Of a stretch of 64,000 bases of DNA, positions 15,307 to 59,200 are shown piece by piece. The notes below the pieces were generated by a model. The model made no database searches, was not told where the DNA came from, and saw only the letters and a list, made by a program, of their open reading frames with translations. How positions within the stretch are numbered: the stretch's first letter is position 1; every line of letters begins with the position of its first letter. This DNA comes from Echinarachnius parma (lineage: Eukaryota > Echinodermata > Echinoidea > Clypeasteroida > Echinarachniidae). The translations under genes and the position numbers were made by a program. The DNA lies in contig JBAMJV010008015.1 of assembly GCA_037951105.1 (NCBI GenBank), positions 1 through 64,000 on the forward strand, given 5' to 3'.

Positions 15307-15936
15307 AAATACCCGTCCGTTATCCAGACAGTGGACAGCGCACTGCATGAGCGCGCGGCGACACGCGAACTCTCCCATCTGTACATATCAGCAGAGTCGC
15401 TCACTCGGCTTGGCGTCTCCGTGCGAACTTTTCGAAAACGCCCTCTTTTATAAACACGATGACACGGCCTCTTTCCGTGCTACAATGATGAATAAATAAT
15501 AATATAAGGGGATTATTTAGATGTAGTTTCAAAAGACTGAAATGAATTCCCGCTCATCACCATGGATTTAGATTATATCTTTTACTGGAATAAATGCGCA
15601 GGTACAGCTTTAACATTTGTTTAAAGCACGATGGACGGATTAAATCTGGCCACGGGGAACATTATGAAAATGTAAACAATAACATAAACATAACTGTTTT
15701 CATCACTAAATTTTACCGCATTTATATAAGAGGGTAGACGTTCATGCGTACATAAATCTCTGTTCCTAGGCGAAAATGATACTGTCTACCTCATGTAAGA
15801 AGAAGTTTGCAGTTTTTATTTTCTTTTTCCCTTTGTTGTACTTTGTATTGAATTCAGTTCCTAAATCTCATTGGTAGTTCCATAATTATTTTCGTGTTCT
15901 CGTACACCAATTTAATCCTGATATTGTATATAATAA
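15307..15936. other. No recognisable feature
   Basis: Includes a somewhat GC-richer patch at 15340-15480, but no frame or motif I can name. Confidence 0.45.
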
Positions 15937-16337
15937 AGGTTTTCCCGCTCAATTTTGCACTTTTTTCAATCGAATTCATTAAGGGTCATTCGAATTCGCG
16001 CGTTGCCGCGTAATCGTTGGTATCGGTCTTCCAAATTCCGAATACGTTCATGCGAATTCATGCATACGCACACACTTTCGTGAATAGGCAAAGAAGTTCA
16101 TTAAGGGCATTCGAATTCGCGAATTTGCAGCCAACTGTCAACTGCCCTTTCGCGAATTCGAATGACCATTGATGAAAAGGTATGCACTTTGTGCAAATTC
16201 ACTTGCTCCTACGTGATTTTGAACGACTATTTACGAATTCGAATGCTGCTTTGGTACGGCGATCGCAAATCGCGCGAATTCGTTTGCTCCTATTATCAAT
16301 TCGATTGACACAATCGCGAAATTGAGCGGGAAAACCT
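15937..16337. mobile_element. ~400-bp MITE (family D), copy 1
   Basis: TIR AGGTTTTCCCGCTCAATTT with the complement AAATTGAGCGGGAAAACCT at the right end. The interior is dense in GCGAATTCG and GAATTCGCGA palindromes. A close copy lies at 55750-56151 in the same orientation. Flanking bases are TA-rich. Confidence 0.85.
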
Positions 16338-17670
16338 ATATTATCTTTGTATTTGGAACTGAAATGAAACGAATTAATTGAATTGAATTGAATTCTCTGT
16401 TATTATATTTTATTTTACAAACACTGCCAAATATAGACAGCAACATTTGTTTTGTTGAACACAAGAATCTGTGATGCAAGTTCACATACATTTGATACAT
16501 TGGCGGCTCTAACGCCCCCCGCCCCCCTTTTTACAATTTATTTTTTTACCATACATTATATATTCTATTTACCCCCTCTATCGCAACAAGCGCACAGTTA
16601 CCAAGTTAGAGCGCAGCATAAGAGGGAAAACAACAAGCCCCTTTTCAAAATCGATATTTTCTCAAAACGTTTATCGATCATTCTCACTTTCGGCTGACCA
16701 TACCCACTCAGGCACTTAACCAATATAATGTATGAGCGGTCATTGCGGTCAAGCTAACCGTTTACAAGAATTGTACACTATTCATTTACACGCTCTCACT
16801 TTCTATTGATTACTATTGTTGTATATAGTTTCAGTTTTGTAGTGGACGCAGGTTGTTGTTGATGTTGTTTGTGTTATATCTGTACAGGCTGGTCTACCTA
16901 TCACGGCCTCGACCCTCGATTGGGACCAAATAACGCTGTTCCAGGAACTACATCGTAGCTCAGCTCGCGCCAAATAAACAGAACTCATGTAATGTGGCTC
17001 TTTGCCCAAAGATGATTGGCATACTTGATACAGGTCGCACTTTTCTAATTCACTGCGTAGATTTAATAGGGAATAGGTAATAATATGCTACTTCATTGCG
17101 ACTTTTCCCACTATATTACTGTGAATTTGTGATTCACATTATGTGTTGTGAACATATTAAAAACAAATCAATTGTGTTATGCAATTTTGGACTTCTCCCT
17201 TTAGCGTCCATTTTATTTGCTTGTGTATCTATCAATTTATGTATTTATTGATATATTCATTATAATAATTTATCTTCTTGGGGGTGGGGGACGGGGCGGG
17301 GATTGACAGGAAGAAAGACAAAATATTGCCTTCTTGCCCGACCCGCAGTTTCTTGCAATTCTGATGAATTGGACCAACCCTTTCACCATCTTATTGTATC
17401 ATTTGTGCTAATGTGATTTCAGAAATTAAAATAATATAAGCAAACAAACAAAACAAAACCCAAAACGACCCATATCTGCTAAGTGGTTATCTAGAAGGAT
17501 CTTCGGACGTGTTTAAAAAAAAAAATTTCTATTCAACTTTCCAAGAAACATTAACCATGTGCAATTAGAGGCGGCGTACATTTTATTGATTTTTAATGGC
17601 ATTAAGTGGTCAAAAGTAATTACATATGTACATGTATCGTTGAGATTTACACGTATACGTCTGTTGACTC
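16338..17670. other. No recognisable gene
   Basis: Contains a possible one-ended hAT-like scrap near 16497-16530 (CATTGGCGGCTC followed by C-runs). Otherwise featureless. Confidence 0.4.
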
Positions 17671-27830: not shown

Positions 27831-29951
27831 TCCCTTTGTTATGGCACTCCTTACATAATTTGTGAAGTTAAGGTATTTGATTGGAGGACCAAATTTGTGA
27901 GCATAGTGAGGGGAAAAGAAAGACGTGCGTTGAGGATGTCAGTAGTAGTATGATCGTTTCCGGAAACTTTCTATAAATGTTACAATTCAATTGAAATCTA
28001 TTTCACGTGTCTTTGTTTTGATACCCTTTGAATAATTAATGAAGTCGAAATGTTTGATTTGAGGACCAGAATTCGGTGAAAAGTATGGGAAAGAGGTGGT
28101 GTATAATACGTGTCAAACAAAACTAAAAATCGAACAATGTGCCCCTTGTCGGCATTTGAAATTGACGTTGAAATAAAATACTACTAGTCTAACGAACTAC
28201 TTTCAAATTACTGCAGAAAGTTTCTTCTTATGCAATTTATAATAACATAATTTATACATGTGATAGTGATTTTTCTGCCTTTGTCAATATAAAGCAAAAT
28301 ATATTCTAACCTTGCATATTGATTGTTGCAATACGGTCCGTAGTTTTGGACATACGGTATACCGCATGCATTCGCTGACCGCCGTTAAGAAATTCGGCCA
28401 CTCACCGTATAAGTATAAAAACAAAGATATTTATACACGTATCTGTAATAAAAAAAATTAAAAAGGGCTTTGATAGAAGTCAATGACATTTTTGTTCAGC
28501 TGAATCCAAATTATCAGGGTAAAAATCCCGTAAATTCCCGCAATTCGAACTTCCCTTGGAAATCACGTGGCACACCATGTTGGAATATAGAGAGTGTTTT
28601 GCGTCTTCGATCACTTTGACGCTTTGTGACCGATCATTACGAAATTCGGCCAACCGGCCATCAGGATACGTGTGGATAAAGCATTATATTATTTGTAAAA
28701 GATAATAAGCGAAATGTCAAAATGTACTTGACAAAGAAAATGGTTACTACCACAAAAATGTAAAATATGATTAGGTATTCATCAATAATTGATACTGAAT
28801 CCAGTAACTTATCCAGCTTATGTAATAATACTGACATACACAATTGGTTTACTTGTATTGTACATCAGACGCTTTGAGACCGAACATTAGGAAACTCGGC
28901 CAATCGTCTATCAGGATTCATGTAGATAGAGCATCATAATTATTGTTAGAAATAAAAACGAAAATTTCCAAATTTACTTAACGTAGAATATATATATATT
29001 TCTGTATAACTATTAAGATAGCTCGAATCACTATTAAAAAGGAAAGCCATTTCGTGTGACTTTGTTTTAATATATCCATGGAATAATTCACGAAGTCGAA
29101 GTGCTTGATATGAGGAACATAATTTGGGGAAAGAATGAGAAAAAGGTTTTTTATTACTATAATACGTGTCACACAAAACGTAACAAAATTAACGTTGAAA
29201 TAAAGTATTTCTATTGTCTAACGATTTAATTTCAAATTATAACAGAAAGTTTCTTCGTATAATGTTATTTCGAATAACATTATTAATACATGTTTACGTA
29301 ATTTGCAGCCTTTGACAGCATAAAACAATTCACATTCTAACATTGGACTTTTGCAACACATATTAGTTTCAATAAAAGCCTTCATGTTTTGCTTTAAAGC
29401 ATCACATGTTACATAAGTGCAAAACACTCGCTGACCGAATTGAACAAATTCGGCCACCCACCCGTCATGCCCGTATTATACATTATAAGTTTATCAAAAC
29501 AAAGATATTTATATACGTATATATAATAAAAGAGGGCTTTGATAGACTTAAGGCAATTCTTTTTTCTACAGCAGTATAAAAGGCATCAGGGAAAAAAACT
29601 ACTGTCAGATTAGTGTAAATCCCCACAATACGTACTTCCCTCGAAACTCACGTGGCAGACCATGTTGGTATATTTATAATAGAGAGTGCTTTGCGTATTC
29701 GATCACCTTGACGCTTTGTGACCGAACATTACGAAATTCGGCCAACCGGCTATCAGGATATGTGTGGATTAGCATTATATTATTTGTAAAAAAAATAACC
29801 TAAATGTATATTAAGAAAACTTACTATCACACACATATAAGATATAATTAGGTATTCATCAATCCAGTAACTTTGCCTATGTAATAATGCTGAAATAAAA
29901 ATTGGTTTACTTGTATTGTACATCAGACAAATAATGTACCTATATTTAGTT

Positions 29952-30229
29952 AGTTAAAGTCCTTCCCGTGCCAATGTTGGCACATAAGGCGGCGCCAATC
30001 TCCGATTCATTAGCCCTGGGCCACACGTCTACTAAATGTAGCGAAAGCTATAGAAGGGGGCCAGTCCTCTGGTAACTCGTGTGATTAACTGTCCCTTCTC
30101 TATTCTATAAATGCCGAGCACCTGACTAGAATGAAGAAGGTACAAATTTTAAAGTATGGGTTCGAACCCGGGACCTCCCGTGCATGAGGCGGACACTCTA
30201 ACCGCTAAGCCACCATGCTCGGACTCCTG
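29952..30229 (-). mobile_element. tRNA-derived SINE
   Basis: On the minus strand the head at about 30224-30160 reads as a tRNA-like domain: box A-like TGGCTTAGCGGTTAGAGTG, an anticodon loop CTCATGC (CAT), and box B GGGTTCGAACCC. A ~200-bp body follows with GGCGCCGCCTTATGTGCC and a tail GGAAGGACTTTAACTAACT. The direct repeat TATTTAGTT flanks it (29943-29951 and 30230-30238). It is inserted in the satellite. The body may belong to a widely shared SINE superfamily; I cannot verify which. Confidence 0.85.
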
Positions 30230-30721
30230 TATTTAGTTGTCACTATTAATTGTCACAAGCGGGCATTCGATAAGTATTATCTGTTTAATATATATTTTTT
30301 CGCTCACTTTGACGCTTTGAGACCGAACATTAGGAAATTCGGCCAATCGTCTATCATGATTCATGTCGATAGAGCATCATAATTATTATTGTTAGAAATA
30401 AAAAAAGAAAATGTCCAAATTTACTTAACATAGAATTATTTCTGTATAACTATTCAAATAACTCTAATTAATATGAACAAAGAGAGCCATTTCATGTGAC
30501 TTTGTTTTGATATCCCTGGAATAATTCACGAAGTCGAAGTGCTTGATTTGAGGAACAGAATTTGGGGAAAAGGATGAGAAAAACTTTGTTTGTATTACTA
30601 ATACATGTTTACGTAATTTGCAGCCTATGATAGCATTAAACATTCTATAACATTGGACTTTTGCAACACATATTATTTTCAATTAGAGCATCACATGTTA
30701 CATAACTGCAAAACATTCGCT

Positions 30722-32237
30722 GACCGAATTGAACAAATTCGGCCACCCACCCGCTATGCCTGTATTATACATTATAGGTATCAAAATAAAGATATTTATA
30801 TACGTATCTGCGATAAAAGAGGGCTTTGATGAACTGAAGGCGATTCTTTTTTCTTCAGTTGTATAAAAGGCATCAGGGAAAAAAACTATTGTCAGATTTA
30901 GTGTAAATCCCCACAATACGCACTTCCCTCGAAACTCACGTGGCACACCATGTTGGTATAATAATAGAGAATGTTTTGCGTCTTCGATCGCTTTAAAGCT
31001 TTGTGACCGAACATTAGGAAATTCGGCCAATCCCTGGAATAATTCCCGAAGTCGAAGTGCTTGATTTGAGGGACAGAGTTTGGGGAAAAGGATGAGAAAG
31101 CGGGTTTTAAATAGTAATACGTGTCACACAAAATGTAACAATCATCAAATGTGCCTTTTCGGCATTCAAAATTAACATTGAAATAAAGTACTTCTAAACA
31201 TAAAACATAAAACAATGCACATTTTATAACATTGCACTTTTGCCACACATATTAGTTTCAATAAAGGCTTTCATGTTTTGCTGCTTAGAGCATCACATGT
31301 TACATTACTGCAAAACACTCGCTGACCGAATTGAACAAATTCGGCCACCCACCCGCTATGCCTGTATTATACATTATAGGTATCAAAATAAAGATATTTA
31401 TATACGTATCTGCGATAAAAGAGGGCTTTGATGAACTGAAGGCGATTCTTTTTTCTTCAGTTGTATAAAAGGCATCAGGGAAAAAAACTATTGTCAGATT
31501 TAGTGTAAATCCCCACAATACGCACTTCCCTCGAAACTCACGTGGCACACCATGTTGGTATAATAATAGAGAATGTTTTGCGTCTTCGATCGCTTTAAAG
31601 CTTTGTGACCGAACATTAGGAAATTCGGCCAATCCCTGGAATAATTCCCGAAGTCGAAGTGCTTGATTTGAGGGACAGAGTTTGGGGAAAAGGATGAGAA
31701 AGCGGGTTTTAAATAGTAATACGTGTCACACAAAATGTAACAATCATCAAATGTGCCTTTTCGGCATTCAAAATTAACATTGAAATAAAGTACTTCTAAA
31801 CATAAAACATAAAACAATGCACATTTTATAACATTGCACTTTTGCCACACATATTAGTTTCAATAAAGGCTTTCATGTTTTGCTGCTTAGAGCATCACAT
31901 GTTACATTACTGCAAAACACTCGCTGACCGAATTGAACAAATTCGGCCACCCACCCGCTATGCCTGTATTATACATTATAGGTATCAAAATAAAGATATT
32001 TATATACGTATCTGCGATAAAAGAGGGCTTTGATGAACTGAAGGCGATTCTTTTTTCTTCAGTTGTATAAAAGGCATCAGGGAAAAAAACTATTGTCAGA
32101 TTTAGTGTAAATCCCCACAATACGCACTTCCCTCGAAACTCACGTGGCACACCATGTTGGTATAATAATAGAGAATGTTTTGGGTCTTCGATCGCTTTAA
32201 AGCTTTGTGACCGAACATTAGGAAATTCGGCCAATCC
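30722..32237. repeat. 602-bp higher-order tandem repeat, ~2.5 near-identical copies
   Basis: Blocks offset by exactly 602 bp (for example 30722, 31324 and 31926) are almost base-for-base identical; one difference I noticed is C versus G near 32182. Each block spans more than two diverged ~245-bp satellite units. Identical open frames of 110 and 116 codons recur only because the DNA was copied; they show no domain. Confidence 0.9.
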
Positions 32238-33900
32238 CTAGAATAATTCACGAAGTCGAAGTGCTTGATTTGAGGAACAGAATTAGGGGAAAAGGATGAG
32301 AAAGCGGTTTTTAATACTTAAACGTGTCACACAAAATGTAACAATCATCAAATGTGCCTTTTCGGAATTCAAAATTAACGTTGAAATAAAGTACTTCTAT
32401 CGTCTAACGATTTAATTTCAGATTATAACAGAAAGTTCCTTCGCATAATGTAATTTCGTATAACATTATTCATACATGTTTACGTAATTTGCAGCCTTTG
32501 ACAGCATAAAACAATGCACATTCTATAACATTGGACTTTTGCCACACATATTAGTTTCAATAAAAGCCTTCATGTTTTGCTTAGAGCATCACATGTTACA
32601 TAACTGCAAAACACTCGCTGACCGAATTGAACAAATTCGGCCACTCACCCGCCATGCCCGTATTATACATTTACAGGTATCAAAACAAAGATATTTATAA
32701 ACGTATCTGTAATAAAAGAGGGCTTTGATAGACCGAACTATTTTGTCTTTAGCTGAATAAAAGGCATCATAGAAAGAAAAAAAAACTATTTTCAGGTTTA
32801 GTGTAAATCCCCACAATACGCACTTCCCTCGAAACTCACGTGGCACACCATGTTGGTATAATAATAGAAACAATTTTGCGTCTTCGATCACTTTGAAGCT
32901 TTGTGACCGAACATTACGAAATTCGGCCAACCGGCTATCAGGATACGTTTAGAAAGAGCAACGTATTATTATTTTTAAATGAGCGATCATTTGTTAATAT
33001 ATTTGAGTAATTTGACAAAGAAAATATGTGTATTTTTGTTAATTAAGATAACTCGTACTTACTATAGAAAAGGGAAAAATATGCCATGAAATTATGCATT
33101 CATTAATTTATAGAAACAAATTATTTTCTCTAATAACATTTTTAATACATGTTTACATAATTTGCAGCCTTTGACAGCATAAAACAATGCTCATTCTATA
33201 ACATTGGACTTTTGCCACACATATTAGTTTCAATAAAGGCTTTCATGTTTTGCTTAGAGCATCACATGTTACATAACTGCAAAACACTCGCTGACCGAAT
33301 TGAACAAATTCGGCCACTCACCCACCATATGCCCGTATTATACATTTACAGGTATCAAAACAAAGATATTTATAAACGTATCTGTAATAAAAGAGGGCTT
33401 TGATAGACCGAACTAGTTTGTCTTTAGCTGAATAAAAGGCATCATAGAAAAAAAAAAACTATTTTCAGGTTTAGTGTAAATCCCCACAATACGCACTTTC
33501 CTCGAAACTCACGTGGCACACCATGTTGGTATATATATTCTAGAGAGTGTTTTGCGTTTTCGCTCACTTTGACGCTTTGTGACCGAACATTAGGAATTCA
33601 GCCAATCAGCTTTCAGGATACGTTTAGAAAGAGCAACGTATTATTATTTGTATATGAACGACATTTGTAAATGTATTTGAGTAATTTGACAAAGAAAATA
33701 TGTGTATTTTTGTTGATTAAGATAACTCTTACTTACTATAGAAAAGGGACAAATATGCCATGAAATTATGCATTCATCATTATTATAGAAACAAATTATT
33801 TTGTCTAATAATTGTGACATTAAAATGGGTTTCCTTTTTATTTTATTTTACACCTACACAATGATCATAACAGATCAGTAATTGAATGTCAATGTCCACA

Positions 33901-34246: not shown

Positions 34247-34281
34247 ACTCTTTATTAGGATGAAATCTATTTTAAACTTTT

Positions 34282-34350
34282 GATCACAATACAAATATTT
34301 ACCTCCGAAATTTTCGGCTGTCGTCTACAGCCTTCGTCAGCGATGTGACC
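34282..34350 (-). ncRNA. Hammerhead-ribozyme-like motif, sense-orientation terminal repeat
   Basis: On the minus strand: CTGACGA, a hairpin GGCTGT/ACAGCC, then GAAA, the conserved hammerhead core order. A distal stem I GGTCACA/TGTGATC can form (7 bp, one G-U). Stem III could only be the short palindrome AATT, implying a dimeric type I form. One extra A sits between the core and stem II. This copy lies at the 3' end of the PLE, in the sense direction. Hammerheads are established in PLE terminal repeats; activity here is inference. Confidence 0.6.
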
Positions 34351-35988
34351 CGACTTGACCTTTCGTGACGTAACGATCGATCAACGGGTCGTAGACATTC
34401 GGTAGCTTGTATCGCCCCCCGCCTCGGTTCAGTGAAGGTTGAAAGGCCCGGATATAGATTGCTTCCTTCACCCCTCTCTCGAAGTATCGAGCCTCCCTGT
34501 CCAAGATGCTGACCTCTTTCAAGTCTACTTGATGGCCAGGAGACTCGATATGGATGTGTTGTGAAACCTCCGATGCATACGAGCTGGGGCGTCGATGTTC
34601 CAGAAACCTTGTTTTGAGTGATCGCTCTGTTTCTCCGATGTATGATTCCTTGCAGATGCCTTTCGTTGTCTGTCCTTGGCAAGGAATCATATACACCACC
34701 CCCGTAGCGTTCTTCTTCTCGGTCTTGTCTTTCGGAGCTACTAAGAATTGGCGTAGTGTTCGAGTTGGTTTGAACGAGACTCTAATGCCAACCTTATTGA
34801 AGTTCCGTCGAAGAGCTTCCGAGATGCCATTGATGTAGGGAAGAACCACGTGTCCTTTTGGAGGTTGAGTGTCTTTCCTGGCCGGTTCACCCTCCGTTGG
34901 CTTTTGGCGTTTGTTGAAAGCCCAACGAGGGTAACCGCACTTGGAGAGAGCTTTAGTGATGTGTTCTTTCTCTTTCTTGACAGTCAGAAGATCAGTGATT
35001 ACGGTCTCAGCACGGTGGAACAAAGTACGGATAACTCCTAATTTATGTTCTAGTGGGTGATTGGAAGTGAAGTTGAGGTATTGATCGGTGTGGGTGGGTT
35101 TCCGGTAAATCTGAATGTCCAAACTACCGTCGGGCTTGATCACTGTGGACGTGTCGAGGAATGCTAGCGACCTGTCTTCCTCACCTTCAGTAGTGAACTT
35201 GATGTCCGGGTCAATCGAGTTCAGATGTTCAGTGAACTCCTTTGCGAACTCTTTCTTGAGTTTTGTGTGCGTGTCGTCCACGTAGCGGTACCACCAAATC
35301 GGTGGATGGGGGGCAGTGTTGATGGCTATCTCCTCAAAGTGTTCCATATACAGGTTACATACAATGGGAGAAACCGGCGAACCCATTGCTGCTCCATGAA
35401 TCTGTTGATAGAAGACGCCATCGTAGACGAAGTACGTGCACCGTAAGCATACTTCTAGGAATTGGACAATGTGGTTTACGGTGATTCGAGTCCTATCCTT
35501 GAGAGTGTTGTCCTCTTCTAGTTTAGATTTGATAATCTGTAGTGCTTTGTCAATCGGAACAGTGCGGTCACATCATACGAACGAAGTTCTTCGTCTTCCT
35601 CCACTCGTTCACTCTTAATCGCTTCTGCAAACGTCTGAGAGTTGGCAACGTGATGGCATGTCTTGCCCACGAGAGGGGATAGAATATCCGATAGATGTTT
35701 AGCACATTGATAAGTTATCGAGCCAATACTGCTTACAATCGGACGGAGCGGAATGTCAGGCTTATGAACTTTCGGTAGACCATAGAACTTTGGAGGGTTT
35801 TCTGTTGTGGGGTAGAGTTTGCGGTATTCATCTCTGTTGATACCTCCTTCATTTTCTATGTCTTGTAACACTTTAACCAGTTCCTTCTTGTATTTCTGTG
35901 TCGGGTCTCTCTTGCCTAGGTTTTTGTAGGTAACACTATCTTTGAGTAAAAGTTCACATTTCTTTTTCGTTACGTCACGAAAGGTCAA
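34337..35988 (-). pseudogene. Penelope-like reverse transcriptase with GIY-YIG endonuclease, frameshifted
   Basis: Two frames make up one protein. The upstream frame (35988-35518) holds PPKFYGLPKVHKP and RPIVSS, and motif A as SYDVTALF. The downstream frame (35386-34337) holds GSPVSPIVCNLY (motif B) and the catalytic YVDD, then a linker with KPTHTDQYLNF, then a GIY-YIG domain: GVVYMIPC, SYIGETERSLKTR, a His-containing EHRR region, the putative catalytic Glu in KEAIYI and a PSLNRGGG end. The 35387-35517 stretch is open in the downstream frame, so a single frameshift, probably a ~10-base loss right after TALF, separates the halves. The N-terminal region of typical family members is missing: the frame starts inside the terminal repeat. 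The copy is inactive. Confidence 0.93.
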
Positions 35989-35992
35989 GTCG

Positions 35993-36061
35993 GGTCACAT
36001 CGCTGACGAAGGCTGTAGACGACAGCCGAAAATTTCGGAGGTAAATATTTGTATTGTGATC
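35993..36061 (+). ncRNA. Hammerhead-ribozyme-like motif, inverted terminal repeat
   Basis: The same motif as in the other terminal repeat, on the plus strand, therefore antisense to the PLE frame. The core CTGACGA is at 36003-36009, stem II at 36011-36027 and GAAA at 36028-36031. The two copies look identical across the motif as far as I can compare. Confidence 0.6.
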
Positions 36062-36131
36062 AAAAGTTTAAAATAGATTTCATATTAACTACCAATACAG
36101 ATGAACTTTCATAGTAATACTCTTTATTAGG

Positions 36132-37288: not shown

Positions 37289-38159
37289 TTAAAGGGGTAG
37301 TACAGTTTTGGTAAGGCTGAGCTTTTAGTAACCAAACCTGCACAATAACATTACAAACTAATAGTTATAACTCCACCATGCTCGAAAGATACACTCTCAA
37401 AAAAATGTTAACCAACTGGTTAAAATTTTAACCAACAGTTGGTTTCCAGGTAAACCGACCAACTCTTGGTTAAAAGATTAACTAACCCTAGTTGGTGACA
37501 AGTTTAACCAACTATTTATTAAAACTTTAACTAATTATTTTTTAAATATTTGTTTATCAACCATAGTTGGTTACGATTATAACCAACTATTTATTAAAAC
37601 TTTAACTAATTATTTGTTAACTATCTTTTAATCAACCTTAGTTGGTTACAATTATAACCAACTATTTATTAAAACTTAAACCAATTATTTGATAAATAAT
37701 TTTAACCAACCCTGGTTGGTTAATAAACGTAACCAACAGTTGCTTACATTTTCATCTATGTAAACAACTGTTGGTTAATTTTATTATCCAACCAACAATT
37801 GTTTGCAGGTAAGCCAAAAAAAATGTACATTACCATTCTACGGCTTGGTACGAACAGTCACGTCACGTTCACGTTCACGTCACGTGAAGGTTCTGTACCT
37901 TTTGTGAAACAGGTCACCCAAATCTACGAAGTGTAGGGTAAAATGACCCAACAATTCGTGAAATAGGTCACCCAAGTCTACGAAGTGTTGGGTTACGTGA
38001 CCCAACAGTTTGTTGATATACTATATGCAATTTATGAAAGCTCACGTAAATTGGCGCTTGCGTACAAAAATGAATGTAAATTGTCGTTGAGAAGAGACTA
38101 ATTCTCGGTATATTTAATCGTGAACGAACAAGTCCTACCTATACTGTTATACCAAGTAT

Positions 38160-38417
38160 AGGCGTACCCAGGCATGGGGGCAGGGGAATGGACACCCCCT
38201 ACCCCCCCCCCCCCCCCCCCGCCCCTTACATAATTCTCAAGAAATGTCTTGGTTTCGGCCTCGAAATGTGTGACCGGTCCTGGTCTCGGCCTCGGCTGCG
38301 ATCATTTTCTACGGACACCCCCTACCCACACTCCCCCGCTGACTTCAATTTGTCTGACGAAATCCCCCCCCCCCCCCTTCACCCACCCCTTGAAAAAATC
38401 ATGGGTACGCCACTGCC
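38160..38417. mobile_element. hAT-like MITE (GGCGTACCCA ends), innermost insertion
   Basis: The left end is AGGCGTACCCAGGCATGGGG; the right end ATCATGGGTACGCCACTG complements the CAGTGGCGTACCCA-type tip. Two C-runs lie inside. I could not find a clean target duplication. The 80- and 71-codon frames here are C-run artefacts. Confidence 0.6.
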
Positions 38418-38616
38418 TACAAGTAGCTAGTTCGGATGCCAAATACTTTAATTTATTTATTTAGTATTGATTGGTTGGTGTGATTAATTGTTTCATTGAC
38501 TGATTAATTGATTGATTGATTGTTAAATTAAATGATTGATTTATAGATTGACTCGATTCAATCACCATAATTTAACACTATTAATCAAATCATTGTTTTA
38601 TTACTTTTAAACTCAT

Positions 38617-38664
38617 TGATCACTCACTCACTCACTCACTCACTCACTCACTCACTCACTCACT
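38617..38664. repeat. (CACT)n tetranucleotide microsatellite
   Basis: About eleven uninterrupted CACT repeats. A cruder ATTGATTG-rich stretch precedes it at 38465-38560. Confidence 0.95.
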
Positions 38665-40483
38665 TTCACATGCAACGCCACTAATGCCCACGCGCAGACG
38701 TCCAGCACGGGAACTTCAGGCGTATGCGAACCGAAGGTCCGCTGCGTGTAGCATGCAGTTCAGCTGGAAATCAACATTTGCCAAAATCCACGCACGACAC
38801 GTCTTTAGAAATACTCTAATAACAAGACAAATAATGCAAGTGGTATGGTTGTACATTACCTAAATGACAGAACTGCATATTATCGTCTCAGATTACTCTG
38901 AATTATGCACGTAAATATTATAAACATAATGATTGAAATGATTTGATAAGGCGGTTTCGGCATTTTCGTCGACATTTTTAAATGTCTTTGTGCGTGTATG
39001 TCTAGTCTTAGTAACAAGCGCTTGCAATTTTAAAAATCTTGATTAAACACTCACGTCACGTTTTGGTAGACGTGACGATTCGAGTTTTACTGGCATGGAA
39101 AACGACAAATTGTTGGGTCACTTTACCCTACACTTCGTAGATTTGGGTGACCTGTTTCACAAAAGGTACAGAACCGTTCACGTGACGTGAACGTGAACGT
39201 GACGTGACTGTTCGTACCAAGCCCCATTCTACCATGTCTACTGATGAATTTTAATAATACATTTGAAACCGTTAAAATTCCCACAATATTTTGAATATTG
39301 AGAAATGGTAGGGTGATTCCTATGTGGTGGAAGTGAAAGATCATTTTGCAAAAATACAATGGATACATATGGTTTAGCAATCCTACAACAGAAAGATAGT
39401 GTACACTTAAGATTCCAATCAAAAACAGGAATACATTACGCCATTATGACATTATGATTGCCGATTACCTGCCTGGTAATCATGGTAATGATGTACCGTA
39501 ATGCTGCTGCAGACTTGTCCCGACTCGTCCCGAGCTGGCAGCGCAGCGCGCTGCATGCATGCAGCTGCAATCACTTGGAATTTGCCCGGGGCTGCATGGG
39601 GGAATTGGCGGTCACGTCACGGCGATTTTAACACATTATTCAACATATTGTGGGAATTCTAACGGTTTCAAATGTACTATACAAATTAACCAATAGATTG
39701 GTATAGTAAATATTTGTTTGGCTTACCTGCAAACGCTTTAATGAGGAATTCAAAACCCAACTGCTTGAGTCTTTCTGTTACAGCTTCCATGATGCTTAAT
39801 TCTAGCCGAAAACATATTGCTGCGATTCCTTGTTTCTCATTGGCTAATTTCATGTCACATGTTCAAAACTTTTAACCAACTTCGAACGGCGGTAATTCCA
39901 CATTATCTTTAACCAACGTATGCAGAACGATCTTTAACAAACACCATTTTAAACCAACCATGTCACTTTAACTAACGATTGGTTATTTATTTTAACCAAC
40001 CAGTTTTAATACATGAACATTTTACCAGTGTTTTGAGACTGTATAGAAAATTACAAACGACTCAGTAAAAAGCCTGTTATCATTAAACAAAAGAGCCATT
40101 AAAACACAAGAGGGCGCTCTCTAAAAAAAAGCATTGGTTTCAACCATTTTCATACAAATTATGCATGTGATGTTTTGTTGAAATAATGATTAAATAGAGA
40201 GATCATCAACAACTATTTAAAAACACCTTTTGAACATTTTTGAAAAAAGTGTAAGCATTTTTGTTTTTTTAAATCATCGAATAAATCTGGGCCCCTGATT
40301 TATTACGATCGGATATATGTATTGATATTTCAGCCGTTTCTGAACCGATTTTGATAATAAAAAAAAAGTTTGTTCTGCCACTAAAGTTGGATGCTCTTTC
40401 ATATTTTACACTCAGATTTTCATTATCTCACAACAAAATTATTTTGTGCAGCGCCCTTTATACCAAAACTGAACTACCCCTAA

Positions 40484-41404
40484 CGAAACCGTCACTTGTT
40501 TGTGATTTAGGAAATAAGAAGATTACATCCATTAGTTGTAAACCATTTTGATCCCCGTTAGAAATAAAGACTTCTTGTGGCAGGCTCACTGGCAGAATAA
40601 CATGTATATATCACCATCACACCAAAGATCACACTACCATTGGCACATTTTGAGAGTAATAACCTGGTGACATGTTTGTGCTTCGGTAGTGAGCGGGTTT
40701 ATTCCCCTCCTTATTACATTTTATCTCCATGTTTTAAATAGAGATGAGGATGTTTTAAAGGCATAATGAATCTTTAGTAGTGCAGACATACATCACACAA
40801 TACCATTCTCACATTCTAATAGTTATAATAATGTGACTATTTCGTATATAAGACGTTAAGAGTTAAACACACTTTTTAAAAACCTATTATCATGAATATA
40901 ACCGTTTTGAAGTAAAGGCATTTCCTGTATGCAGGCTAAAATCCTTGACGGGGAGCGCTAAGCCACTCACTACTACTGTGACAGTCCCATATGCAGAGTT
41001 ACAACCCAGTAACGCTGTATATTTCGGGGTATAAAAGAGTTCGAGTCCCTTTGTTATAAATTCTTCATCCCATCTTTGAGATGAGGATATTTCTTCTTGG
41101 AGATTAAATCCCTGGTAGGAGCAGTGGCGGAGCCAGAATTATCTATGGCAGGGGCGCACAGAATTCGTATAGGTGAAAAAGAGAAGGGCGTGAGATAATC
41201 ATGTTTACAGTTTGGGAGCCTTGTATATGAACAAAATTGAGCTATTTTGTATTTGCTATTTTGTTAGATAGTCCCAAAACTATGACTAAGTAGTATCTGA
41301 ACAATATTTGCAATTACATATAGAAGGCTCCGACCTACGAGATGGTATATAGGCAGAACTCAATTTAGCCAAGCATCGACATTATAACGCCCTTCTTCGT
41401 GTTC
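40484..41404. other. No gene; possible hAT tip near 41124
   Basis: CAGTGGCGGAGCCAGAAT near 41124 looks like a single hAT-type end; I did not find its partner. The rest is featureless. Confidence 0.4.
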
Positions 41405-44400: not shown

Positions 44401-44534
44401 ATTATTCGGTGCGCAAGATAATTGTGCGGGTTTGACCTGTACCTGATGACCAAGGGTATTAATAATGCGCTTAGAAACATTGTATTAAGCGCTATATAAA
44501 TGTGATATATTATTATTATTATTATTATTATTAG
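44401..44534 (+). mobile_element. Probable LINE/SINE 3' tail
   Basis: AAGCGCTATATAAATGTG followed by a (ATT)n run at 44511-44533. This tail pattern is common at 3' ends of CR1/L2-type retroposons. No coding part is recognisable upstream. Similar inverted tails occur at 58007 and 59098. Confidence 0.5.
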
Positions 44535-46890: not shown

Positions 46891-49171
46891 ATACTTTGTG
46901 AGTTTTGGTGGAGACCAACGGTACCCCCCCCCCCCTACCCCATATCTTTCTTAGATATCTCTTCTGAATGTTGACCATGAATATGTCACTACTCTCAAAT
47001 ACATCATCGCGCTTCATGCGTGTCCTGTTCGAGGTAGAATATCTCAATTTTCCAAGAGATATGTCTTCTAAAGTTGTACTAAATTTTCAAAGAAAAATCA
47101 TACATTGAGACAGCTATCGCATGATGCATTTGTCAAGACAAACAATCCGTTTAATTGCAAGAACGTCTAATTGTTCCGCGAATTATTAAAAGACGTATTC
47201 ATGCATGTAGGATCTTGAATATCGATCCACCATTGTTCTTTATTAAAGGGTCTTGCTAATCATTAAGCTGAGGTTATGTCACTATCTACAGTGGTTAGAA
47301 TTGTAATCGATTCGCGTATTGTTCAGCGACTTTTACTGTGAAAGCGTCCGAACCCGAAGATGAATTATTCGCACTGATTAACAATTCTTCAAAAAGTTAT
47401 ATAATTATAATTTCAAGGAAGTTACAAGCATCATGACATGACTTTCACATTATGCAATACTTCTGTGAAACATACTTACATAACCAACGTGTACATGTTT
47501 GACTGACCCTGTAATTCAGGGAAAATAATATCGAATACAGTCATTGGAATAACGTTATTGTTACAGGTTAAATCTGTTTAGCAGTTTCCTCCACCTATAA
47601 TGTCAATAAAAAGTGTAACAAATAACATAAGTTTGTAAATGCTTTTACTGACAATGTATCTCTGTATCTATTTTGTTTTACCATTGCACATTTTAAAAAC
47701 GTGAAACAGTTTATAATTTAGAGATGGAAATAAGAAAGAGTCTGATTCCCTGTGTTCTTTCTGGTAGGGTGCCGCTACCAACTAGCCCTACTATTTGTTT
47801 TCAATCCATTCTTTCTTCTTTGGTTTCTGTTCATGGATTTGTTGTTCGTTATTTATTTGTAAATAATTGCCTTACATCTAGAATTTGAAACTACAATACT
47901 CCTTACAGTCCTCACTCCTCGGGCTTATTTGAGTTTTCCGATGAGACAACCGTATTATGATTAATTAAATCCTCCCGATCATGCAGTATTCAGTTATACC
48001 CGTTAGCATGTTGTTACCCTTTACACACAAAGGAGCTATTCAAAGCAACCGTATACCAGGGGAGTGGGAGTTTCCCTGCGCGCTTGCCTGAAACGAAATG
48101 CAAAATTGATAGTCAACCTTTGATAAGTTCTCGAAACATAATCTGAAAACAACATATACAGTAACCCATGGGGTACGATAATGGAATATATTCACTCTCG
48201 GTTTGTTCATTGTCTTTTGTTATCGCATTTCAAATTTATCGGATTTTATGGATTGAATATAAAAGCGTTCAACCTTTACCATTTATCAAAACATAATCCG
48301 CCAAAAACATAAACAAATTGTGTATACGGGAGTTGCGTCTAGTACATTCGGTTATGTATCTTTTTTTTTATGGAAGTTGCAATTCTTAGGAAAGGTCAAC
48401 CGATTAAATAAGTCGAAGACACGTTCACGATCAACTACAACATTCACACTTAGCCACCGTTGAGTTTGATACATCACTTTATTTCAGACATGTCAGACAT
48501 GACCGGGGGCTACTACAGTTTCCACGTATTCAAAGGTTTGATACTGAAATAACACTCTATCCATGATATTGAATCCCGGTGTTATTTCGCAAGTTTGTTA
48601 AACTCTGAATGTTTTTTTTTTATCACAATATTATGATCCCGACGAGAATTAACCCGTGTCCTTATATACATGAATACTGCAGTACATGGCACGCTAGGTT
48701 CCCATTTGTAATGGGTTAATAATTTGAAGAATGTTTTTCTTTTCAAAGCATAATATAAAGACCAACTGTAAAAGTAAGGCCCCTCACGTACAACAACATT
48801 AAGAACGCCCTTGAAATTATACTATACTTCGACGTTATGTTTCCCAGTATTACGTATTTATTTTTGTTATAATTGTCTTTACATTTTTGTTACATTTTTA
48901 ATCGCAGATATCTCAAAGTTACAATTTAGGATATTTTTGTATGGGCCGTTTATTCCATGTAACAAAATATTTGATACCCGATCCGATTACAAATACTATA
49001 CCTTTATATCTTGGAAATTATTTGTCAAACTTGCTACCAAAAAAAATTGTAGGTAAATCATTTAATTTGGATTTAAATTTTACATTCTTGCAAATTCCAT
49101 GCTATAACTGATGTAATGTATACTGCTCCAAAACGTAGTATAATAAGGCGTTTTCTTTTGAACTATTTATT
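46891..49171. other. No recognisable feature (longest plain stretch)
   Basis: About 2.3 kb with no foldback, tandem array or recognisable protein. The largest frame (81 codons at 48811-49056) shows no motif. Confidence 0.5.
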
Positions 49172-49430
49172 TTAAAGGGGTAGTACAGTTTTGGAAAGGC
49201 TGAGCTTTAGTAACCAAAACATGCACAATGACATTACAGACTAATAGTTATGACTCCACCATGTTCGAAAGGTATATAAAATTACAAATGACTAGGTATA
49301 TAAAGAAGCTTGTTATCATTCAAAAAGAGTCATTTAAACACAAGAGGGCGCTCTCTTGAAAAGCATAGGTTTAAACCATTTTCCATTCAAAATTATTCAT
49401 GAGATGTTTTGTTGAATTAATGATGCAAAC
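49172..49430 (+). mobile_element. TTAA-type MITE, family E, copy 2 (3'-truncated)
   Basis: TTAAAGGGGTAGTACAGTTT through AGAGGGCGCTCTC and GAGATGTTTTGTTGAA, then similarity stops near 49430. Its uninterrupted GAAAGGTATATAAAATTAC is the empty-site comparison for the nest at 37392. Confidence 0.8.
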
Positions 49431-49890
49431 GGGGAAGGACGTTCACTAATTGCCACACCGCGATGACACTTTATGGGAAATGGTATATATTTAGGGGCGG
49501 CGACATAACAACAGCTGCCTCATACCACGGGACAGTAATTCGACACTCAATCAAATGCATGATACGTGCATACTTTTTAAAAATGGGACAATTACCCAGA
49601 AATGTTTATTAGATATATCAAAATAACAAGTTTCATCCTTTCTATATTATGCACGACATGGGCACAGACGTAGGTATATCCCGTTTTGTTTATCCTTGTC
49701 TGTGCGTATGTTTGTATGTACGTGCTTTATTGCTTTATACATTATATCCCTGCCTTTCCATGGAAAGATGGAGATTGATATCGCTATCATCATCCCACCA
49801 TGACAACCAGGGGATTTGATTACTAGTAAACTTCCTTCGCTGTCGTGCCTCTAACCATACCCACCACCACCTTGACTGACGCAAATTACT
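49431..49890. other. No recognisable feature
   Basis: No repeat or coding signal recognised. Confidence 0.45.
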
Positions 49891-54830: not shown

Positions 54831-55749
54831 CCCTCCTTCCAATTCTTTATCAAAGAATAAAGTGATGATACCTCGCCTTTGATTTGCCTTAATGAGCCTT
54901 CGATGAATTTGTCGTATATATAATTATGTAGACGTCACGACCAGTCGTTTCACGAACCTATCCAGCCTCGGCAAGGGCTTGACAGGTAGTACAGGTTAAC
55001 AGTTAACAGCTTACCCATAGGGTGTAATATCTAAAGCAAACTACTGAGAATCACGCCTATCCATGTACACCCATTAGAAAGTATTTTGAGAAAGTGCATA
55101 ACCTTAATGCAAATTTAGTGGGAACTCTTAATTGTAATTATAGTAACTCCGAGATCCTTTCATCACTGAATAGCATAAAGTAGAAATCCTTAATTTAGAC
55201 GTTTATGTATTCCCCATTCCAAGTAGTATCCTAAACGGAACATGAAAACAATTATACCTTTTTAAAATCCTACTTTTGTTCTTCTTTTCCCAGTACAACA
55301 TTCAGCTAATAATATTGGGGGAAGGTACATTATAAACTAGGTTGACTCCAGGGGCTCGCTATATTTGCTTATTACGGTTTACTTTATGACTGTTCCGAAT
55401 TCATGACTCCCCGTATTTCTTGAAAGCAAACTGTTCTCCTGCATACATCTTGTTAAATATTTATTGACCGAATAACATTGATTAAAAGTTCCCCGTTTTA
55501 GCTCAAGTTTTATTTTGTTTTCCAAGTAGACGTACCCAGTAACACATAATAGAAGAAAGACAAAATAGGAACTTGATCTTTTCCCAATATACACTATTTA
55601 GCAAAGGATATATTGGGGGAAGTAAGATCAATAATTTAACAAATTTTTCTCCAGGGGGTCATTACATTATTTGCCTATTTAGGTTCACTTCTGATTGTTT
55701 TGTGTTCTGCGCCTGATAGCGAACTATTAATACTCGCGATATTTACTAT
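54831..55749. other. No recognisable gene
   Basis: Weak internal similarity around 55370-55440 and 55675-55690, but nothing definable. Confidence 0.4.
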
Positions 55750-56151
55750 AGGTTTTCCCGCTCAATTTTACACTTTTTTCAATCGAATTCATTAAGGGTC
55801 ATTCAAATTCACGCATTACCGCGTAATCGTTGGTATCGGTCTTCCAAATTCCGAATAAGTGCAAGCGAATTCATGCATACGCATAAGCTTTCGTTAATAG
55901 ACACAGAAGTTCATTTATGGGCATTCGAATTCGCGAATGTGCAGCCAACTGTCAACTGCCCTTTCGCGAATTCGAATGACCATTGATGAAAAGGTATGCT
56001 CTTTGTGCAAATTCACTTGCTCACACGGGATTTTGAACGACTATTTACGAATTCGAATGCTGCTTTGACACGGCGATCGCAAATCGCGCGAATTCGTTTG
56101 CTCCTATTATCAATTGGATTGACACAATCGCGAAATTGAGCGGGAAAACCT
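55750..56151. mobile_element. ~400-bp MITE (family D), copy 2
   Basis: Same ends and interior as the element at 15937, same orientation, with scattered substitutions only. Ends AGGTTTTCCCGCTCAATTT and its complement. Inserted in unrelated sequence. Confidence 0.88.
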
Positions 56152-57886
56152 ATATTTTTATTTTGTGTTCTTTTATTCTTGACTGAATAACATTGATAGG
56201 AAACCCTTCGTTTTAGCTATATTTCTTTTCTTTTCAATGTAGCCTGAAACCTAGTTACAAATATGACGTAATATAAGAGAAAAAAGGAATATAATATTCA
56301 ACCAAAGATAATATTCGGAAGAGTCCTCCGTGGGTTTTCTCGCGATATATACACCTTATTTTCTTTCGATTTATTCTTGAATTAAATAACATCGATTGGA
56401 AACTCCTCATTTCAGCTATATATGTTGTTTCCAATTAGATTCCTAGTTGACAAAAAAAATTATAATAGAAGAAACGAATAACAGAACATAAATAGCTGAT
56501 GTGATTGGTACTCTAAACATTAGATTTCATTTGTCAGCGAGCATGGTAAAACACGAGACACCCTCGTTGATTCTCCGAGGGATATTAAACAATATTGTAG
56601 TAAGAACTATCCCTCGGAGGATTGGTTAACAATCAGTGTGTTAATATAACGATACTTTTGGGATTTGGTTTTCTCACATGTCTCAATATCTATTTCATTT
56701 GTCAGTGAGCATGTTGGAACACGAGACACCATCGTATCTGCAATCAGTACAGAATTTCATAACCATAATCATGCTAATTAAATCATTATTTGCAAGTTCT
56801 ATGTTTTTGTTTGTCTTCTATTTTTTTAAATTGTAATTAGCCTAACGGCGATTTATACCGATGACTGTATTGAATACTTTCAAAATAGTCTTTATTAGCA
56901 CCAACATAATACATTGTTTTATAACGAGGGTTGCTTCTCGTAACCAGGTCTTCGTTTTGTTTGGTCGCAATTATTGTTGAACGTCAATGGACCTACTTCA
57001 TGTACATTATAGTTCATTGTTGGTTCTCCGGAATGTTACACTGATGATCATGATTATAAAGTATCAATCTTTTCCTCTGAGGATTGGTAAAAACATTTCA
57101 TTGTATCGCTGATAAGTGTTAAGATGTTTTTATTGGATTGGTATATACCCACATGTCTCAATCACATATAATTTGTCAGTGAGCATGTTGGAACACGAGG
57201 CAGCATCGTATCTGCAATCACCGCAGAATTTCATAACCACAATCAAGCTAATTAGATTCATTATTTGCAATATTTATGTTTTTGTTTGTCTTCAATTTAT
57301 ACCGATGACTGTATTGAATACTTTCAAATTAGCCTTTGTTAGCATCAACATGTAATACATTGTCTTATAGTGAGGGTTACGTCTCGTATTAAAAAAACAG
57401 GTCTTCGTTTTTGTGTCGCAAGTGTTGTTGTACGTCAAAGTATCAATCTTTACCTCTGAGGATTGGTAAAAACATTTCATTGTATCGCTGATAAGTGTAA
57501 AAATACTTTATATGGGATTGGTATTCCCACATTTCTCAATCACATATCATCTGTCAGTGAACATGGTGCAATCAGCACACATTTCGCAAGTATAATGATT
57601 ATGTCATGTTAGTGTTTATACTTTCCTTTATATTTATTCCTTCTCTATTTTCATCATCTTCACGGCAATGTAAAATGAATGTAAACCAAGTTTGTATTGA
57701 ATATTTTGATACAAATCTTTGTAAGTATATACAATAGTGCTCCTTGTAAACCAGTTTCTTCGTTTTAGTGGCATTTGTTGTTGAACGAGCTAGATTGTTT
57801 CATTGTTCATTCGCCGACGCATTTTTAATATAGTGCCAGCATTTCCCTCTGAGGATTGGTCAACAATCAGTCTTGTTATCACATTG

Positions 57887-58501
57887 TTAAAGGGATAGCT
57901 TAGTTTTGGTATAGAGGGCGCTGCACGAAATAATGTAGTTGTGAGATAATGAGAAACTGAGCGTCAAATTTGAAAGAGCATACAATTTTAATTACAGAAT
58001 AATAAATAATAATAATATGACGAATTTATATAGCTTTTAATGCAAACAAGCCTCTAAGCGCTTTATAAAAGGAAAATTAGAGTATACGGAGTATAGAAAT
58101 AGAGAGTGTTTGAGCTATGACTGATAATGTTGTTTGAAGAGATGATTTTTTAGATTATCTTTGAAAGAGTCAATTAAGGAAGAGTTCTTGGCCCAGTTAG
58201 GCAGAGAATAAACTTTATTTGATCCAAATCGGTTCAGACACGGCTGAAATATAAATACATATATCCGATCGGGAAAAAACCTGGGGGTGGTTTATTCGAT
58301 GATTTTAAAAAAATGTATAAAATGCTTACACTTTTCCAAACATTTTCAAAAGAGGTTTTTTAATAGTTGTTGATGATCTCTCTATAATCATTGTTTTAAC
58401 AAAACGTCACATGCACAATTTTGTATTAAATATGGTTGAAACTAATGAGTTTTTAGAGAGCGCCCTGTTGAGTTTTAATGGCTCCTTTTTTAATGATAAC
58501 A
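57887..58501 (-). mobile_element. TTAA-type MITE, family E, copy 3 (reversed, split by a LINE end)
   Basis: TTAAAGGGATAGCTTAGTTTT then AGAGGGCGCTGCAC is the family's right end in reverse. Similarity resumes after the LINE fragment at AAATCGGTTCAGACACGGCTG and continues through AGAGAGCGCCCTG. The other end is lost at the next MITE. Confidence 0.75.
58007..58201 (-). mobile_element. LINE 3' end, ~195 bp, 5'-truncated
   Basis: On the minus strand the frame gives PNWAKNSSL then SFKDNLKNHLF and a stop. The W....SL..FK..LK.HLF pattern is typical of the C-terminus of CR1/L2-like reverse transcriptases. The 3' UTR runs through AAGCGCTT and ATATAAATTCG to an (ATT)n tail. Near-matching direct repeats CAGAATAATAAA (57995-58006) and CAGAGAATAAA (58202-58212) flank it, consistent with target-primed insertion. 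Confidence 0.75.
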
Positions 58502-58780
58502 GGGGGGGGGGGGGGGGGTGTTTCACAAAGATCCTAAGTTGAACTTATGTCTAAGTTGGACTTAACTATTATGAAAAGCCATTGTTAGCCTTGGAATACA
58601 TTAAATTAAAAAAGCAACTAAGCAAGATTTGTTTAGACTTTTCATAAATGTTGCACAAAGAACATGAAATTTCCTCGATAACAGAAAATATTAATGATTT
58701 GAATCAACATGTTATGCCTTTTAATAGAACTGTTACAACATTTGTTCAAAAAAATAACTCCTTTCCAACTTAGTATCTAA
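58502..58780. mobile_element. GTTTCACAAAG-type MITE, type 2, copy 3
   Basis: A run of 17 G, then TGTTTCACAAAGATCCTAAG then TTGAACTTA. The right end CCAACTTAGTATCT is truncated or decayed. Matches the intact copy at 52006 internally (GCCTTGGAATACA, CATGAAATTTCC, TTATGCCTTTTAA). Confidence 0.75.
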
Positions 58781-59097
58781 AGATACTAATGGGAATTGTA
58801 TTCTCAATACTACACTTCATTTTGTCAGTGAACATGGTAAAACACGAGACATCATCGACCTGCAATCAGCGCAGATTTCATAATTATGATTATGTCATTA
58901 ATTGCATTACTTTATTGTCTGTATCTTTTATTAGCCTTACTGCAATTTAGACAAATTATTAATTGAATACTGTCATAATAGTCTTTGTTATAGGATAAGC
59001 AATACTATTGTTATGATTAGGGTTACTCCTTATCGAATAGCGTTTTTGTTTTAGACGTAATTATTGTTATGAGCTAGTTTGATTCACTGACGCATTA

Positions 59098-59200
59098 TAA
59101 TAATAATAATAATAATATGAACATTTATATAGCGCAGCTACTATAAATATATACTCTACTGCGTTTAAATAAGTATTTAAATTATTATTACCCATGGTTA
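59098..59200 (-). mobile_element. Probable retroposon tail, (TAA)n
   Basis: (TAA)n followed by ACATTTATATAGCGCAGCTA; on the minus strand this is the GCGCTATATAAATGT-(ATT)n tail type. No coding remnant recognised. Confidence 0.45.

Follow-up and report, generated by a model that had tools for sequence, protein, structure and literature searches.

Strict duplication of a TA dinucleotide is the mark of Tc1/mariner transposons, subterminal repeats are a habit of CACTA elements, and long terminal inverted repeats (TIRs) together with duplications of mostly 9 bp are typical of Mutator. Kolobok elements have 5'-RR..YY-3' termini, by which a passage of PMC9587614 contrasts them with piggyBac. CA..TG termini and duplications of 2-5 bp are assigned to the CMCT group in an excerpt of PMC12730594, and the marks given for Merlin in an excerpt of PMC8101967 are 5'-GG termini, TIRs of 24-462 bp and duplications of 8 or 9 bp. 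In the window, i.e. the whole stretch of 64,000 nucleotides that was analysed (64 kb from the start of a contig of 127 kb; the assembly holds 1.2 Gb in 14,790 contigs), four sequences are stacked inside one another between positions 37,289 and 40,483; they are referred to below as layers 1 (outermost) to 4 (innermost). An earlier interpretation made from the letters alone (the sequence-only reading) had placed all four at, or within a few bases of, where they were found, and had taken them for four successive insertions. Comparison with other copies of each family indicates, with high probability, that the locus received three independent insertions, first layer 1, then layer 2 and finally layer 3, and that layer 4 is an older passenger.

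Copies of the families were taken from the window's own 1.2-Gb assembly. For layer 3, the best 40 of 1728 first-look candidates were scored and all 40 were read, the window copy included. For layer 2, the best 40 of 82 candidates were scored and 29 non-window copies were read as loci. For layer 1, the best 40 of 6938 first-look candidates were scored, again including the window copy. Consisting of the best-scoring 40 in each case, the three samples are biased towards likeness to the window.

Layer 3 (37,842-39,223, plus strand) is a non-autonomous long-TIR element of 1382 bp that begins 5'-GGCTTGGTACGAACAG, sits in the left arm of layer 2 and itself holds layer 4. Its TIRs are perfect over 47 bp and 97.5% identical over 119 bp. 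The perfect 9-bp duplication that had been read around it was confirmed: CCATTCTAC occupies 37,833-37,841 on the left and 39,224-39,232 on the right. Among the 40 copies, 35 had both ends, and these were flanked by duplications of 9 bp (26 copies), of 8 bp (7 copies) or of neither length (2 copies). The window copy was 0.59% from the majority of 34 aligned copies, with a pairwise mean of 1.0%, and the closest other copies among the best 40 scored were 93% identical for layer 2 and 94% for layer 1. By divergence, the dating check put forward by the sequence-only reading, the layer-3 insertion is recent, at 0.6% from the family majority. The insertion site was empty in 26 of the 29 other layer-2 copies, not all of which are independent because some share flanks; the remaining three lacked an anchor, and L019, a deletion copy without the layer-3 site, was not counted as spanning. 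Conversely, layer 2 was absent from the 400-bp flanks of all 34 other layer-3 copies that retain both ends. Four layer-3 copies sit in layer-1-type sequence (L006, L009, L048 and L063), with family matches at 70-85% for the last two.

Layer 3 has both the long TIRs and the mostly 9-bp duplications of Mutator, and the genome holds 24 Pfam MULE matches. The sequence-only reading had called it "Mutator-like", but membership of that class is unproven: 5'-GG ends, 119-bp TIRs and duplications of 8 or 9 bp suit Merlin at least as well. As far as the excerpt of PMC8101967 describes them, Merlin elements share with layer 3 the 5'-GG ends (here GGCTTGG), a TIR length that lies within 24-462 bp (119 bp) and the two duplication lengths (9 bp in 26/35 and 8 bp in 7/35). 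They differ in that no transposase match was obtained in the frames scanned within layer 3 and the nest. GG ends combined with 8-bp duplications in 7 of the 35 copies set layer 3 apart from Mutator-like elements and form the combination given for Merlin in that excerpt, and 77 matches to the IS1595 domain exist in the genome. A layer-3-like TIR was not found in the stretches fetched at four of the 77 IS1595 loci, nor in those fetched at four of the 24 MULE loci. In our judgement layer 3 is probably, by a modest degree of confidence, a Merlin element; that it would belong to the Mutator (MULE) superfamily instead is doubtful, if still a serious alternative.

Many of the IS1595-domain matches, on C13940, C10530, C7829 and C14262, have the same span and score and contain one in-frame TAG, and several of them are paired, 6.5-7.1 kb apart on one contig. 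They possibly represent an element of recent origin whose transposase gene is split or broken. Within the nest, no transposase remains were detected by a Pfam scan of 12 of the 23 frames of at least 45 amino acids that overlap 37,842-40,041, all matches of the 12 scanned frames being far under the curated cut-offs. The transposases that would have moved layers 1-3 we infer.

Immediately to the right of layer 3, nine additional bases, CATGTCTAC (39,233-39,241), may be a degenerate third target copy. They are left over when layer 3 and one target copy are taken out, they are lacking from 26 of the 29 other layer-2 copies (one of the 26, L039, has three different extra bases), and they are not accounted for by a single insertion of layer 3. 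Ungapped, CATGTCTAC matches CCATTCTAC at 6 of 9 positions. Exact duplications of 9 or 8 bp flank 33 layer-3 copies, and two others of these, L052 and L053, also reach 6/9 on one side, so that the resemblance alone is weak; the exact net gain of nine bases is the better argument. One tentative explanation, which we consider rather unlikely, is that two insertions struck this site: a first element, duplicating 9 bp, would have entered layer 2 at CCATTCTAC and been excised, leaving CATGTCTAC, and layer 3 would then have entered the remaining 9-mer. Three stacked target copies would result from such a double hit. Slippage duplication would be another possible origin of the nine bases.

Layer 2 (37,392-40,041, plus strand) has the ends CACTCTC...GAGA(G/C)TG, measures about 1.2 kb without its insert and carries subterminal TTAACCAAC repeats, the kind of repeat mentioned above for CACTA elements. 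It is flanked by TA at 37,390-37,391 and at 40,042-40,043, both read directly in the sequence. When the layer-1 flanks were joined with one TA, they aligned to 49,163-49,440 with 87.5% identity (gaps aside), and the junction showed no length change. The incomplete layer-1 copy at 49,172-49,424 (plus strand) is thus an empty site for layer 2, and the length-exact comparison on which the sequence-only reading had based its TA duplication holds, with the restriction that this copy matches only as far as about 49,424, where it is truncated or interrupted. The 39 other copies among the best 40 of 82 were 80-93% identical. Seventeen independent copies (window excluded) have both ends, and 14 of them show a 2-bp duplication: TA/TA in 10, TG/TG in 2, GA/GA in 1 and CA/CA in 1, the three mismatched pairs being gt/ca, ta/tc and ca/ta. 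The 17 copies were obtained from 19 flank pairs merged by hand, L075 lying at the same place as L016 and L014 and L018 sharing flanks. Layer 2 is therefore TA-flanked here, as had been claimed, but as a family it duplicates 2 bp with a preference for TA and is not strictly bound to TA.

This pattern is compatible with the CMC group and speaks against Tc1/mariner. Across the 17 copies the strict TA duplication expected of Tc1/mariner was not observed, and the four non-TA pairs (TG/TG twice, GA/GA once, CA/CA once) look like true duplications. CA..TG termini with 2-5 bp duplications are, moreover, the features that the excerpt of PMC12730594 assigns to CMCT, and layer 2 shows them as CACTCTC..GAGAGTG with 2 bp in 14/17. 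Despite the TA on both sides in the window and in 10 of the 17 other independent copies, a Tc1/mariner-type element with strict TA targets is improbable. With the CACTA/EnSpm-Mirage-Chapaev (CMC) elements, including animal TRC, layer 2 shares 5'-CAC..GTG-3' ends and 2-bp duplications, as described in excerpts of PMC12730594 and PMC1636069; it differs in ending in CACTCTC rather than CACTA or CACTG and in its long, repeat-rich arms. A non-autonomous element of CMC/CACTA type would be the best fit. The arms 39,237-39,300 and 39,634-39,697 were considered as a fifth, hidden element and rejected, as they are the inner ends of the layer-2 arms.

The nesting of the two outer families is not fixed. 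The layer-2 copies L022 and L032 each enclose a layer-1-type element, a nesting opposite to that in the window; the insert of L032 has TTAA on both sides, and the corresponding place is empty in the window's layer 2. Genome-wide there is no fixed family order between layers 1 and 2. The layer-1-type insert of L022 belongs to a related subfamily with longer ends. As a separate observation, the layer-2 copies L014, L015 and L018 on contig C4294, together with L017, share flanks, pointing to a stretch multiplied by segmental or tandem duplication, and a 119-127-bp fragment of a layer-3 end lies near L014 and L015.

Layer 1 (37,293-40,481, plus strand) is a non-autonomous element of TTAA type with the ends AGGGGTAGTACAGTTTTGG...CCAAAACTGAACTACCCCT and a length of about 540 bp without its inserts. 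The left TTAA target copy is read directly at 37,289-37,292. The right TTAA is not preserved at 40,482-40,485, where the flank reads CCCCT and then AACG. The TTAA-type MITE proposed for 37,289-40,483 is accordingly borne out by its left side and by its family, and not by its right flank. In the family, TTAA flanked 24 of 34 distinct end matches (at most 4 mismatches; fetched loci plus the window), and the ten without TTAA include decayed ends and inner motifs as well as the right end in the window. Five complete copies with true ends were flanked by TTAA left and right; this count was derived from 7 rows, of which L022 and one of two L078 rows were dropped as the inner motif of the related layer-1 subfamily with longer ends (shown for L022). 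The family is very abundant, with 6938 first-look candidates, and the other 39 of the best 40 scored were 88-94% identical. Its termini, AG...CT, are of the form 5'-RR..YY-3'. Duplication of TTAA at the family level and 5'-AG...CT-3' termini are shared with Kolobok as characterized in the excerpt of PMC9587614, whereas the loss of the right TTAA at the window locus is a difference; a Kolobok-type non-autonomous element would fit best.

A further incomplete layer-1 copy lies on the minus strand at 57,891-58,503; it has TTAA at its sole intact end and an insert of its own of about 200 bp (58,004-58,204), whose AATAATAAT...TTTATATAGC stretch recurs at 44,459-44,531 and 59,094-59,135. Other repeats were seen elsewhere in the window. 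A reverse-transcriptase frame at 34,260-36,083 (RVT_1 match, E 1.2e-4, under the Pfam cut-off) lies between inverted repeats of 117 bp with 100% identity; with a GIY-YIG-like stretch recognized by eye, it is presumably a recent Penelope-like element. An array of units of about 600 bp extends over 28,000-33,800, with 96% identity between 30,640-31,798 and 31,219-32,399, and two of its units share an open frame of 141 amino acids without a Pfam match. Two copies of a 417-bp element with inverted ends, at 15,927-16,342 and 55,740-56,156, are 93.5% identical. Searches of the window for Rfam families and for tRNAs gave no match.

Layer 4 (38,157-38,415, plus strand), with its CAGTGGCGTACCC ends, we take to be a hAT MITE, here as a relic. 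Of its inverted ends of CAGTGGCGTA type, the right one is exact, and the left one is decayed, reading TATAGGCGTACCC for CAGTGGCGTACCC. An exact search of the assembly gave 2907 occurrences of the 16-base end motif CAGTGGCGTACCCAGG and 0 of its reversed control. Among 10 copies taken from the first places listed among the 2907, a perfect 8-bp duplication was found in three (L082, L083 and L090) and an imperfect one in L087 (7/8) and L089 (6/8), and the other end was not found in five. Layer 4 thus shares with hAT MITEs bearing CAGTGGCGTACCC ends an identical right end; sampled copies of the latter have 8-bp duplications elsewhere, whereas layer 4 has a decayed left end, is without a clean duplication and is cargo of layer 3 in the copies seen. 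At its conserved ends the flanks are ATACCAAG and CCTACAAG, which match at 4 of 8 positions, so that an 8-bp duplication is not present. The CAAGTA pair around layer 4 requires a G that is private to the window (0 of 33 other aligned copies).

Of the 40 layer-3 copies (window included; best 40 of 1728), 36 span layer 4 in the same position; the other four were truncated or had a larger deletion, and none presented a clean empty site. Layer 4 occupies this position, with the same left-end decay, in two layer-3 relatives that show 90 and 92% identity across about 480 bp. Both belong to the 10 sampled hAT-motif copies; since the hAT end motif had served to find them, relatives lacking it would not have been picked up. 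In the assembly, 120 exact matches to the hAT-containing left junction were counted, against 0 for a hAT-free junction pattern (32 exact bases plus a gap of 0-30). The hAT-containing pattern fixes 26 bases and the other 32, so that a diverged hAT-free ancestor could be missed. From the 36/40 spanning copies, the two relatives, the junction counts and the private base it follows that layer 4 is older than the enclosing insertion. It is a fixed component of the layer-3 copies examined and did not insert at the window locus. Its presence in the relatives implies that the hAT element had entered a layer-3 ancestor before the subfamilies parted. This entry would have occurred by hAT transposition, and we infer the age of the capture relative to layers 1 and 2.

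The same observations bear on the reading in which the locus received four insertions, each into the previous one, and the hAT-like MITE came last. In its favour, the hAT-like piece does lie deepest in the nest, and 8-bp duplications surround copies of this end motif at other places (perfect in L082, L083 and L090). Its constant place in 36/40 layer-3 copies and in the two older relatives, the 120 versus 0 junctions, the 4/8 flanks and the dependence of the better match on a private base make this succession extremely improbable; that layers 3 and 4 are linked is already enough to refute it. Thus, the four stacked classes of target duplication that had been described are reduced by the innermost, and the insertion order that had been called unambiguous is upheld for layers 1, 2 and 3 and fails for layer 4. 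Searching for each layer separately and for empty sites, as had been advised, gave a corresponding division. Layers 1-3 are independent families, each found without the others among the fetched copies, whereas layers 3 and 4 travel together, none of the 40 copies having a clean hAT-free site, so that the outcome which the sequence-only reading had named as its own refutation holds for these two layers; empty sites were obtained for layer 2 in layer 1 (at 49,172) and for layer 3 in layer 2 (26/29), and for layer 4 there was none.

A segmental duplication in which the entire stack was copied as one larger repeat has a next to negligible probability: some layer-2 copies do share flanks (L014, L015 and L018 on one contig; L017), with a 119-bp fragment of a layer-3 end about 0.6-0.7 kb from layer 2 in L014 and L015, but those fragments fall outside layer 2, the 400-bp flanks of the 34 other layer-3 copies are free of layer 2, and layer 3 is absent from all 26 readable layer-2 sites.

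The three-insertion history with an older passenger would run as follows. A very abundant TTAA element, layer 1, would have inserted first. Layer 2, with its CACTCTC ends and 2-bp duplication, would then have entered layer 1 at a TA. In a third and recent step, the GG-ended layer 3, a duplicator of 8 or 9 bp, would have entered the left arm of layer 2, already carrying the decayed hAT MITE from an event that had taken place elsewhere, before this step. Cut-and-paste insertions of this kind would pile up by chance in a large, repeat-rich genome. Three details weigh against this best explanation: layer 4 is without a duplication that would prove hAT insertion, the right TTAA of layer 1 is missing, and a single layer-3 insertion leaves the nine bases at 39,233 over. 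Nothing relevant to nested MITEs that were amplified together was among the literature matches listed, and the families are not claimed to be absent from the literature.

As an example of transposon nesting in a repeat-rich genome, the stack is good but ordinary. Depth in a nest is not the same as order of insertion, as a carried passenger predates the insertion by which it arrives; the rule commonly applied to nests is right for three of the layers and wrong for the fourth. A genome-wide test of whether adjacent layers travel together settles the order. The layer-3 copies, about 1% apart and with duplications mostly intact, point to a recent burst that would be usable for population study.
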